This document shows, one piece after another, positions 29,709-32,404 of a stretch of DNA of 64,000 nucleotides. A program made the translations under genes and the position numbers. Numbering within the stretch: position 1 is the stretch's first letter; each line of letters opens with the position of its first letter. The notes beneath the pieces were generated by a model. That model had not been told where the DNA came from. It saw only the letters and a list, made by a program, of their open reading frames with translations, and made no database searches. This DNA is from Anaerolineae bacterium (lineage in GTDB: Bacteria; Chloroflexota; Anaerolineae; Anaerolineales; Villigracilaceae), in assembly GCA_018645405.1 (NCBI GenBank), contig JABGOQ010000099.1, positions 1 to 64,000 of the forward strand, given 5' to 3'.

Positions 29709-30095
29709 TTAATTCTCAAAAATATATCCTGCTTTTTCTAAAGCATTTTTGGCAGTAGCTAAAACCTTAGATTTAACCAAAACATAATCTGTATCATAAG
29801 TTGAAAGTGCAAAAATGCTTATTTTTGCCTCAGCCAAGATACCAGAGATTTTAGCTAAAATCCCTGTGATCGCAAAATCAAGCGGACCCAATACTTTTAT
29901 ACAAGCCCAGCCATCTTCACTTTTCTCACTTGAGACAGAAAGATGAGCATCACAAACAATGGATAACTCCTCATTTGTTCGTGTAATTGAGAAGAAATCA
30001 CCTTTCAACACACTCGTGGGAATATCCTGTTCTGGTGAGAAACGATGAATTGTATACTCTTCATCAAGTATTGCTAAGGTCAGTTTAGTTTTCAT
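29709..30095 (-). CDS. ACT-domain protein (CASTOR-like)
   Basis: A 128-residue protein with two ACT-like halves. The C-terminal half has GPLDFAITGILAKISGILAEAKISIFALSTYDTDYVLV, split here into the glycine-containing turn GPLDF and the helix following it; this is the layout of stand-alone ACT_7/CASTOR-type proteins that bind amino acids. No catalytic motif is present. Its place between a GT2 and a large membrane gene, with an 11-base overlap upstream and a 3-base gap downstream, makes it a stable member of the glycan operon. A sensor role for an amino acid or a small ligand is a guess. Confidence 0.75.
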   Translation of the reverse strand: MKTKLTLAILDEEYTIHRFSPEQDIPTSVLKGDFFSITRTNEELSIVCDAHLSVSSEKSEDGWACIKVLGPLDFAITGILAKISGILAEAKISIFALSTYDTDYVLVKSKVLATAKNALEKAGYIFEN

Positions 30096-31020
30096 ATTCT
30101 ATCTTTTCAACAGCACGCGGCGCAGGCGTTTTCTCGGAGAGAATACCGGGTGGATAATAAAAGCCTTGATGGAGTTGGGCATCAATCTTACCCGAATAAT
30201 TATAGCCCTGATACGTTCCCCAGTATTGCAAAAAACGAAACCAAAGAATACTTGCCCAATATTGTCTCAGCACATCTTCTCTTTTTGCTTCTAACAAATC
30301 AGAATAAGTGCTACTCAACCAAAGACGAATAAAGTTCCACAATGAGAAGGTGCTGTTCGGCAAAATCTGCTTCATCGCGATTGCTTCACGTCTATAGCGG
30401 TTATGGACTTGGGCAGGCTTCTCATCGTGGAGATGGATGATCTCTGCTTCGGCGGTGTAGGCAATGCCATAACCCTGCTCCATTGCCCAACTGCTCCATG
30501 CCAAATCTTCGAGACCCGTTAAGGCCTCGTTATATGGGTGTTGCTCCCAAAGCGATTTACGAATGGCGGCATTGGCATTATGTGAGTAGGGATGTCCTTG
30601 ACGGGGCTGGGATATATCGGGGAAATATTGTTTGAAGAATTGATGTTCGGAATATTGATTGGTCACGCCGCCACGTTGTTTGCCATAGCTGACAGCAAGA
30701 TTCTCATCATCAAATGGTTTTAGTAATTGCTCTAGCCAATCGGGATAAATAGGATAGCAATGTGCGCTAATATTGACAATGAATTCTCCCGTCGCGGCTT
30801 CTACGCCATAATTGAGCGAACGACCAAAGGTGAATTTTTCGGGCGTGATGTGGACGATTTTTGCTCGGTAGCTCTCAGCAATGGAGACAGTTTCATCGGT
30901 GGAGCCAGAATCTACGAGAATGATCTCGACGTCATTGAGATTTTGCTGCTTGATCCCCTCAAGCAAACGACCAATATCTTTGGCTTCGTTATAGGCGCGG
31001 ATGACTACTGAGCAGTTCAT
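30085..31020 (-). CDS. GT2-family glycosyltransferase, rhamnosyltransferase-like (copy 3)
   Basis: A 311-residue GT-A enzyme. VVIRAYNEAKDI (residues 5-16) opens the nucleotide-binding fold, then VDSGSTDET and NISAHCYPI where many rhamnosyltransferases keep the metal-binding loop. GLEDLAWSSW, about residue 165, is the ED-type acceptor motif with the catalytic base. The C-terminal extension of about 100 residues is helical. It differs clearly from the two other GT2 genes in the locus. It overlaps the four-helix-bundle gene by 4 bases at its start and the ACT gene by 11 at its end. Confidence 0.88.
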   Translation of the reverse strand: MNCSVVIRAYNEAKDIGRLLEGIKQQNLNDVEIILVDSGSTDETVSIAESYRAKIVHITPEKFTFGRSLNYGVEAATGEFIVNISAHCYPIYPDWLEQLLKPFDDENLAVSYGKQRGGVTNQYSEHQFFKQYFPDISQPRQGHPYSHNANAAIRKSLWEQHPYNEALTGLEDLAWSSWAMEQGYGIAYTAEAEIIHLHDEKPAQVHNRYRREAIAMKQILPNSTFSLWNFIRLWLSSTYSDLLEAKREDVLRQYWASILWFRFLQYWGTYQGYNYSGKIDAQLHQGFYYPPGILSEKTPAPRAVEKIEYEN

Positions 31021-31472
31021 GATGTAATCGGGGAATCGGGAGTTGGGAGTTGGGAATTGTCTTCCGCATCGTAGAGGGCTTCGTCTTCACGGATATTTTT
31101 GCCCTGTTTGCTGCGTTTCAAGTAGCCGATATAGCCGTTGATGAGTTGTGTCAGTTTTTCGCCATCTTCAGCTAATGAATCAAATAATGATTTTGGAATA
31201 TAGTTTAACTCCACACACATAACCAGATGGATTAAGGTTTCTTCTAGTGAACCGCGTGCGATATAACAAAAGCGGATATTGTCTTGGTAGTGAAAACGTC
31301 CATAGCCTTCTGCTATATTTGCAGGGATACTATTTGCAGAACGCCTGATTTGCTGTGCCATGCTCCACTTTTCTTCCGCTGGAAATAACGGTACGACCTC
31401 ACGATAAACGCGTAAAGCAAAACCTTTTGCTTTTATCCATGTATTCAAAGATGCCAAACTTTTAACACTCAT
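31017..31472 (-). CDS. Four-helix-bundle protein (S23/IVP family)
   Basis: A 151-residue helical protein of the group known from 23S rRNA intervening sequences and from diversity-generating retroelements (Avd-like). Residues about 35-60 carry the family stretch AQQIRRSANSIPANIAEGYGR, here with NIAEGYGR as its clearest part, and GSLEETLIHL near residue 75. The last 12 residues (NSQLPTPDSPIT) are encoded by a repeat. Inverted copies of that repeat lie on both sides of the gene (31031-31059 and 31479-31515). No reverse transcriptase or rRNA gene is near. Function is unknown; binding of nucleic acid is typical for relatives. Confidence 0.85.
   Translation of the reverse strand: MSVKSLASLNTWIKAKGFALRVYREVVPLFPAEEKWSMAQQIRRSANSIPANIAEGYGRFHYQDNIRFCYIARGSLEETLIHLVMCVELNYIPKSLFDSLAEDGEKLTQLINGYIGYLKRSKQGKNIREDEALYDAEDNSQLPTPDSPITS
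31031..31059. repeat. GGGAGTTGGGAATTG repeat, left copy
   Basis: Tandem GGGAGTT/GGGAATT units lie inside the 3' end of the four-helix-bundle gene. An inverted relative lies at 31479-31515, beyond the other end of that gene. Confidence 0.65.
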
Positions 31473-31478
31473 CTACAA

Positions 31479-31515
31479 CCAATTCCCAATTCACAATTCC
31501 CAATCTACCAATCCC
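31479..31515. repeat. CAATTCCCAATTC repeat, right copy
   Basis: Tandem AATTCCC units, complementary to those at 31031-31059, fill the gap before the four-helix-bundle gene and reach the last codons of the neighbouring sulfotransferase gene (stop at 31505). Confidence 0.65.
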
Positions 31516-32404
31516 CATCCTCTTCATAGCCCAATTTGATCAACAAGTCCCCAGCCACATCTTTGAAGATGCGTTTATGCTCATCGGTGAAATACTTCTT
31601 CCATTCGCCGGTTTTGCCAGAGCGGAAGGTGGGCGAGTTTTTGGGGTTGATGCTTTCTTCGAGTATGTCTATTGCTTTTTCACGCTCTATGGACAGATTT
31701 GGGATACGTTTGGCTACATGGTCAAAAACTTTACCCAAAGTAACACGGCGATTATGAATGAAGTCTTCAAAGTGAAGAGGTAGAACTTCGGGGCGATCGA
31801 GCCAATCGGTGTAGAAGGAAAAGCGTTCGGCGATGTTGGGGAATTCCACATCTGCTTCTGGGAGGCCGAGGATGCTGACGGTGAGGCGTTCTTCGAAGCT
31901 GTGCAATTCTTCGGCGTAATATTTATGATGATGGTGATCGGGCAGCATTTCGGCAATATAGAAAACGTGCGAGACGACGACATCACGGGGGTCGCGGTAG
32001 ATAAAAAACGGGACAAATTTGGAGGAACAGACCCTCTCTACAACCGGCGGCCAAGCCAAGAGATGAGCTGCGGTCACATCCAATGGACGCAGAGAATCTA
32101 AATAGGCAATGGCTTCGTCCACACTGCGCTTGCGTCCGGTATCCCCATCATAAGCCGCAAAACTGACGGGGATATGGTGAGCGAAAGGCGCAAATTCGGA
32201 AAACCCGAGCAAGATTTGATTTAGCAGATGCGTGCCGCTTTTGGGAAAGGAGATGCCGAGCAGGATAGGCCAGTCATTCTCTGGGGCGGTCATTTCAGAA
32301 AAGCGAGGACGGCGCGCAGCAGTTTCGGCTCTGTAGGCGTAGATGCGCAGTTGGTCACGCAGTTTGGGGGGCAGGAGGGCTTTAAGTTTTTTGATTGTGG
32401 ACAT
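31505..32404 (-). CDS. PAPS-dependent sulfotransferase (copy 2)
   Basis: A 299-residue sulfotransferase_1-type enzyme. The 5'-phosphosulfate loop is GISFPKSGTHLLNQ (about residues 50-63), the 3'-phosphate motif is FIYRDPRDVVVSH, and the C-terminal PAPS clamp is TFRSGKTGEWKKYF. All active-site features are intact. It is close to the gene at 36399 (same TFRSGKTG ending and same IEAINPKK/EESINPKN segment) and more distant from the one at 11508. It begins a long minus-strand run; a PilZ gene is divergent from it 144 bases away. The acceptor is probably a glycan or lipid-linked sugar. Confidence 0.9.
   Translation of the reverse strand: MSTIKKLKALLPPKLRDQLRIYAYRAETAARRPRFSEMTAPENDWPILLGISFPKSGTHLLNQILLGFSEFAPFAHHIPVSFAAYDGDTGRKRSVDEAIAYLDSLRPLDVTAAHLLAWPPVVERVCSSKFVPFFIYRDPRDVVVSHVFYIAEMLPDHHHHKYYAEELHSFEERLTVSILGLPEADVEFPNIAERFSFYTDWLDRPEVLPLHFEDFIHNRRVTLGKVFDHVAKRIPNLSIEREKAIDILEESINPKNSPTFRSGKTGEWKKYFTDEHKRIFKDVAGDLLIKLGYEEDGDW

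Follow-up and report, generated by a model that had tools for sequence, protein, structure and literature searches.

An IVP/S23 four-helix-bundle gene between inverted heptamer arrays: a probable small mobile element of a widespread kind

The locus considered here raises the question of why a small gene of the "IVP" (S23) four-helix-bundle family should stand between the genes for a sulfotransferase and a GT2 glycosyltransferase with repeats at both of its ends, and of whether gene and repeats form one transferable unit, as a preliminary description of the DNA proposed. The window, by which is meant the whole 64-kb stretch that was analysed, is contig 151 of a 3.9-Mb draft genome. The IVP gene and its repeat "arms" are probably one small mobile element whose ends are inverted tandem arrays of a 7-mer (elsewhere of an 8-mer), and the gene-free derivatives of this element, on the best reading of the data, resemble heptamer repeats that have already been described.

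The gene and its arms

The features of the locus are as follows.

30085..31020, minus strand: GT2 glycosyltransferase gene, the downstream neighbour and target flank
31017..31472, minus strand: IVP/S23 four-helix-bundle gene, 151 aa, identified by the PF05635 and TIGR02436 profiles, an AlphaFold2 model and fold matches
31021..31504, no strand assigned: approximate extent of the inserted unit, from the sulfotransferase stop to the GT2 start; the relative G003 (L040) has 3 nt here
31030..31061, no strand assigned: 3' arm (relative to the gene), four degenerate heptamers, GGGAATC GGGAGTT GGGAGTT GGGAATT, which also code the C-terminal tail
31477..31505, no strand assigned: 5' arm, inverted heptamers, minus-strand reading GATTGGG AATTGTG AATTGGG AATTGG
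31505..32404, minus strand: sulfotransferase gene, the upstream neighbour and target flank

The gene scores 106.9 bits against PF05635 (curated cut-off 33.8) and 106.1 bits against TIGR02436 (curated cut-off 24), and the AlphaFold2 model of its product has a mean pLDDT of 88.4 and the fold of the solved family members, the best matches being 2gsc (TM up to 0.95) and 2rld (up to 0.88), both normalized by target length. The stop codon of the gene and the start codon of the GT2 gene downstream overlap. Searches of the window unit with Pfam and NCBIfam returned IVP-type families only, with no transposase and no HUH (Y1) transposase; the unit holds no other gene, and IVP itself has no known catalytic motif. 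No rRNA match was found at 30900-31700, the window IVP being flanked by the sulfotransferase and GT2 genes rather than lying inside an rRNA gene, and Rfam returned no credible known RNA for the unit, since the one match, SCARNA7 (22.1 bits against a cut-off of 65), was taken as spurious. The idea of an anti-phage defence gene was rejected, the PADLOC models matching 0 families.

The preliminary description had placed mirror-image runs of heptamers at the two ends of the gene, and these are confirmed at 31030-31061 and 31477-31505. They contain an inverted repeat of 25 nt (31035-31059 and 31480-31504) that is 84% complementary across a spacing of 420 nt. The 14-mer GGGARTTGGGARTT, with one mismatch allowed, has five matches in the window, all of them at the arms, where 0.18 would be expected and where none of 100 shuffles reaches five. 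The arms are the sole inverted pair of period-7 arrays found in the 64-kb window, five shuffles of which give none, and no inverted array pairs were found there at periods 5, 6 or 8-12. In the predicted RNA fold of the unit (-140.5 kcal/mol, z -3.28) the arms are paired with each other and the IVP open reading frame occupies the loop. The 3' arm (31031-31059) is also translated, as the C-terminal tail NSQLPTPDSPITS of the window IVP protein.

The fold of the protein brings a retroelement into consideration, in which IVP, like its fold relative Avd of the diversity-generating retroelements (DGR), would partner a reverse transcriptase acting in trans on the hairpin RNA. Matches with weak E-values to Avd (4dwl) and to the DGR reverse-transcriptase complex (8ube) favour this reading, as would the bias towards the sense orientation reported below, which would fit an RNA intermediate. 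The four-helix fold is indeed common to Avd and the window protein (TM 0.58-0.62 to 4dwl by query length, at 6% identity), but the present unit contains no reverse transcriptase; none lies beside the window IVP, the single RVT_1 match of the genome being on another contig (C80). Against the retroelement reading, moreover, RVT_1 was not detected in 24 of 50 IVP-bearing genomes and was detected in 6 of 10 genomes without IVP (Fisher p 0.74), and 119 of 271 IVP genes are found in genomes without a detected reverse transcriptase. The enzyme thus does not seem to be required in an IVP-bearing genome, and the involvement of a retroelement is unlikely.

Copies, empty sites and gene-free forms

By profile search this genome has four IVP genes, every one of them bracketed by inverted heptamers.

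Window copy: sulfotransferase-GT2 junction, unit GGGAGTT
Second copy: between prs and mutM, unit AGACCTC
Third copy: between two epimerase genes, unit GTTTAAG, with an in-frame stop
Fourth copy: between argB and argC, unit GATGAAT

The expectation that the same gene with the same ends would recur elsewhere in the genome is therefore borne out for the gene and not for the ends: since each of the four copies has a heptamer of its own, the ends are not identical, and what they have in common is a grammar rather than letters. The in-frame stop of the epimerase copy (L004 1426-1797) is a TAG, and matches of the same score with one TAG are found in two relatives (G003:C197 and G004:C171), so that this copy seems to be a shared pseudogene or a shortened gene.

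At the sulfotransferase-GT2 junction, the comparison with relatives that the preliminary description recommended shows the unit in this genome and in G007, whose IVP is 89% identical and whose arms are similar, while in G003, G004, G005 and G006 the two neighbours are next to each other and the unit is absent. Only 3 nt separate the neighbours in G003, and three heptamers without a gene are found in G005; no relative was seen to keep the gene at this junction without the repeats. A different palindromic repeat, CATTGCGAG..., occurs at the sulfotransferase-GT2 junction of G004 (L038) and at the argC-argB junction of G012 (L079).

The junctions of the other copies are occupied with similar irregularity. 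Among 20 prs-mutM junctions, IVP is present in one, the gap is below 30 nt in five, neither IVP nor a stem is found in seven, and gene-free period-7 stems that exceed all 40 shuffles, with differing letters, are found in six; a further junction (L091) has a unit, AGACTTT, close to that of the IVP-bearing copy here, in a stem that only ties with the best shuffle. Among 22 argC-argB junctions, IVP is present in three genomes, gene-free period-7 stems are found in two, with AATGC-type units that resemble those of the IVP copies, and stems of period 8-10 exceed all shuffles in three. The last codons of the sulfotransferase gene (AATTGG) are in register with the adjoining array at the window, which raises the idea that the letters of the site serve as the template for the units; since the prs-mutM site bears many different units on one target, this was ruled out as a general rule.

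Gene-free repeats are represented in this genome by single GGGAATT arrays and by an insert in prmA, and gene-free hairpin copies are present in relatives and in other organisms. One variable loop of prmA contains a 54-nt in-frame hairpin insert of the GGGAATC type in three relatives and a 36-nt insert of other units in this genome, so that four of nine genus genomes have such inserts (L314, L315, L317, L318) and the remaining five have neither. Inverted heptamers of the CGTCCAT type, without IVP, also occur at and inside a P-type ATPase gene of G016 (L205 8543-8940).

Cyanobacterial plasmids offer filled and empty versions of the same site. On plasmid C of Trichormus variabilis ATCC 29413, a unit of 423 nt, made up of arms (TCAGAATTCAG...), IVP and inverted arms, lies between GTAAT and GTAAT, and three related plasmids with flanks 96-99% identical have an empty site reading AAAAAGTAATTAACAAATAA, without the insert and without heptamers, so that the Trichormus unit has been cleanly inserted, with a duplication of 5 bp of the target. 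In Scytonema NIES-4073 the insert is the same but for two heptamers missing from one arm, Nostoc (C052) has a remnant of it, and Brasilonema has at the same place a gene-free hairpin of the same units with TAATTAA, a 7-bp repeat, on both sides. One further copy is internally deleted with both arms intact (L362), and an arms-only element is nested inside the IVP gene of a Nostoc plasmid (L364 441-820); this element matches 111 places in 47 plasmid records, with at least 80% of it present in 30 of them. Filled and empty pairs were also found at cas10-cmr3 (Picosynechococcus PCC 7003 versus 7002) and in an integrase operon (Calothrix versus Tolypothrix), in both cases without a clear target duplication. 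Duplication of the target by a gene-bearing unit is thus seen at a single site, the GTAAT site of Trichormus, and none is clear at the window's own site. Some cyanobacterial plasmid IVPs are located inside CRISPR clusters (cas10-cmr3, L339 1465-1894; cas6-cas4, L347 1285-1966).

The abundance of gene-free forms could suggest instead that the heptamer arrays are pre-existing host repeats, or hot spots, into which IVP merely lands. In favour of this, the same junctions often contain gene-free hairpins or single arrays, whose heptamers differ between species, and G005 has three heptamers without a gene at the window's junction. The empty site of the Trichormus type, however, has no heptamers, landing in a direct array would not yield inverted arms, and the arm sequence and unit length follow the IVP protein across unrelated sites (see below); little probability is therefore assigned to host repeats as the source of the arms.

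The empty sites, the one target duplication and the internally deleted and gene-free copies support the earlier proposal that the gene and its inverted ends are transferable, as does the fact that the arms go with the IVP protein across sites and phyla. Movement of the element is inferred from sequence comparison, and the reading of the window copy as a transferable cassette is supported by these wider data.

Arms, protein and orientation across genomes

IVP genes were found in 50 of 60 genomes searched, with at most 22 per genome. Arms were scored by aligning the left flank of each gene to the reverse complement of its right flank, with a threshold of at least 27. In the set drawn from the order (78 IVP rows in 73 loci, including some orthologous sites such as L004 and L175), inverted arms reach the threshold in 53 of 78 rows, or in 52 of 77 distinct rows, since L031 and L179 are one locus entered twice. 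The controls give far fewer: the threshold is reached by 8 of 78 arms in direct orientation, 34 of 780 mispaired arms and 2 of 569 random loops, and by 1 of 109 small open reading frames of similar length from a 400-kb sample of a relative, in which there is one cluster of inverted period-7 arrays. A second, named set, obtained by scanning one genome per species in many phyla (80 IVP loci, of which two were dropped for short flanks), gives a similar result, with inverted arms in 53 of 78, direct arms in 9 of 78 and mispaired arms in 17 of 624; it spans Bacteroidota, Desulfobacterota, Planctomycetota, Acidobacteria, Nitrospirae, Elusimicrobia, Omnitrophica, Nomurabacteria and others. The IVP genes below the threshold number 25 of 78 in each set. 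Degenerate short repeats are easily over-read, and chance or low complexity might be thought to generate such arms, but the window shuffles, random loops, mispaired arms and small open reading frames all fall far below the IVP loci, which leaves an artefact of this kind with a negligible probability.

The arms are periodic and degenerate at the same time. Within those of the order set, identity is 0.65 at a lag of 7 and 0.61 at a lag of 14, whereas lags 4-6 and 8-13 give 0.19-0.32. On average 3.6 of the 7 positions of a period-7 unit are kept, and the median arm length is 32 nt. The 5' arm is typically G-rich, with G exceeding C in 93 cases, C exceeding G in 11 and two ties; since the unit is palindromic, this polarity is intrinsic to it. 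In two Flavobacterium genomes the octamer of an IVP arm gives 17 and 20 matches, compared with 0 for the reversed pattern; of 14 octamer places inspected in three Flavobacterium genomes, two are by an IVP gene, a few are hairpins and most are single arrays.

When the period (7 or 8) is mapped onto the IVP protein tree, using the 107 of 156 scored rows that passed the period filter, 11 changes are required, as against 25.0 with shuffled labels, and none of 500 shuffles gives as few; units of 8 nt are found in 10 of 11 rows of one clade, which comprises Flavobacterium, Aquimarina, Lambdaproteobacteria and Nitrospirae. Among 5521 pairs with unrelated flanking genes, mean arm similarity is approximately 0.23 where the proteins are less than 50% identical, 0.40 where they are 60-70% identical (n=57) and 0.60 above 70% (n=12, with 8 of 12 above 0.6). 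The overall Mantel rank correlation is weak (0.075, a value reached in 21 of 500 permutations), and the arms are unlike in several pairs whose proteins are 63-74% identical. The letters of the arms thus keep to the protein over short distances and drift over long ones, and since the unit length tracks the protein tree and close IVPs at unrelated sites share units, the arms travel with the gene. Eleven columns are invariant in 35 IVP proteins from many phyla, including Q41, S48, N52, E55 and E78, and this conservation suggests a shared surface or site.

IVP genes are biased towards the sense orientation. When the two neighbours share one direction, IVP is co-directional with them in 48 of 50 cases in the order set and in 60 of 61 in the named set, rows without near neighbours on both sides (19 of 78 and 10 of 80, respectively) being omitted, and the total of 108 of 111 exceeds a background of 168 of 199 gene triples (Fisher p 2.5e-4) that was obtained by simple open reading frame calling in a 400-kb sample of one relative, G016. 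The bias could reflect selection for expression. It is also compatible with the view that the arms are RNA regulators, such as stem insulators, terminators or stabilisers, of a domesticated and vertically inherited gene, a view which the pairing of the arms in the predicted fold likewise favours, and which receives some support from copies that species have in the same place (G000 and G007 at the window junction, and three genomes at argC-argB). The patchy presence of the gene argues against it (1 of 20 prs-mutM and 3 of 22 argC-argB junctions, with up to 22 copies per genome), as do the gene-free hairpins inserted in frame within coding genes and the arms-only element inside an IVP gene. We regard a purely regulatory role of the arms as quite improbable.

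A second, unrelated protein family has the same architecture with a different spacing. GxxExxY genes were found in 49 of 60 genomes searched, with PF13366, a PD-(D/E)XK family, in the four proteins scanned, and those of relatives (L118-L147) are bracketed by inverted arrays of 9-10-nt units of the types ACGCAGATT and ACGAAGGGC. Within one bacterial order, 23 of 30 fetched GxxExxY loci were long enough to be scored; inverted arms reach 27 in 18 of these 23, compared with 7 of 23 for direct and 13 of 230 for mispaired arms, and the best period is 9 in 11 loci, 10 in six and 8 in one. No GxxExxY relative was found in viral contigs among 39 stretches scanned. The ratio of periods of at most 8 to periods of at least 9 is 99:7 for IVP and 1:17 for GxxExxY (p 1.7e-14). 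Two unrelated families with the same architecture and different spacings argue that the protein matters for the array.

Relation to known systems and a possible mechanism

Several known systems combine some of these features. The REPIN-RAYT system has one gene flanked by inverted hairpin repeats, many gene-free copies and an HUH (Y1) transposase; the present element is like it in having a gene between inverted repeats and gene-free hairpins, and differs in having no HUH transposase and arrays of variable units. Terminal inverted repeats are likewise common to the present unit and to insertion sequences, but the present unit is without a transposase.

The closest likeness is to the intervening sequences of 23S rRNA genes (Coxiella, Leptospira), in which an S23/IVP gene also lies in the loop of terminal inverted repeats. 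The Coxiella sequence is described in excerpts of PMC4990558 as a selfish element with an S23 open reading frame, a 28-bp terminal stem, excision by RNase III and tandem GACAGAT heptamers upstream of the open reading frame; the same excerpts report a homopentameric ring for an S23-type protein of Xanthomonas. The present unit differs in that it lies between protein genes and its arms are inverted arrays of site-specific units, and the present elements show gene-free and deleted copies, a target duplication at one site and a unit length that goes with the protein. Seen in this way, the intervening sequence of rRNA looks like one particular form of the present kind of element.

The short tandem repeats of cyanobacteria (STRR) are heptameric intergenic repeats. 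Excerpts of PMC4692102 describe heptameric intergenic repeats of GGGAATC in Xanthomonas and GGGGATT in Nostoc, which are G-rich on one strand, lie between aligned open reading frames and are generally not associated with mobile elements, with 70 and 75 inverted heptamer pairs in two xanthomonads. The units are of 7 nt in both cases, but these excerpts make no link to IVP, whereas here the repeats end a gene-bearing unit; the inverted pairs of Xanthomonas look like gene-free forms of the present element. The intergenic TAACTGA heptamers of the Beggiatoaceae, for which a repeat-binding protein acting as a mobile element was suggested (PMC4679880, in excerpts), are almost all direct repeats, unlike the inverted arms here, and those excerpts are silent on "23S", "four helix" and "intervening". 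The excerpts of PMC10910872, PMC11270868 and PMC8934634 mention IVP or GxxExxY without a link to arms, and no paper tying IVP to heptamer arms was found in searches of the open-access literature.

A mechanism can be outlined on this basis. The transcript would fold its arms into a stem that RNase III may cut, as reported for the 23S rRNA version, and such excision would make insertion into an operon tolerable, with the element expressed by read-through. If IVP forms a ring, it might, as a matter of speculation, bind the arms of its own element, each subunit taking one unit, on a hairpin of DNA or RNA. The protein TRAP, which binds spaced triplets, is an analogy for a ring on repeated units. 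The IVP ring might then, again speculatively, bring the arms to host enzymes that cut and join, and copies that have lost the gene could still be moved in trans, giving rise to gene-free heptamer hairpins.

The cassette is genuine and represents a widespread type of element, within the S23 intervening-sequence kind, and there is a fair probability that it stands for a separate class. We give even chances to the broader proposition of pan-bacterial transposase-free elements, in which one small gene lies in an inverted-array hairpin and the protein reads the unit spacing (7-8 nt for IVP, 9-10 nt for GxxExxY), with the intervening sequences of rRNA and many unexplained bacterial hairpins of heptamers, octamers and nonamers as members or gene-free derivatives. 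Such a class would unite three unexplained things: the IVP proteins, a family of unknown function that is spread over many phyla; the intervening sequences by which 23S rRNA is broken; and the degenerate heptamers repeated in cyanobacteria, in xanthomonads and elsewhere. It offers a testable code, in which unit length and sequence are set against the protein, along with a family of mobile units that are very small and carry a gene but no recognised transposase.
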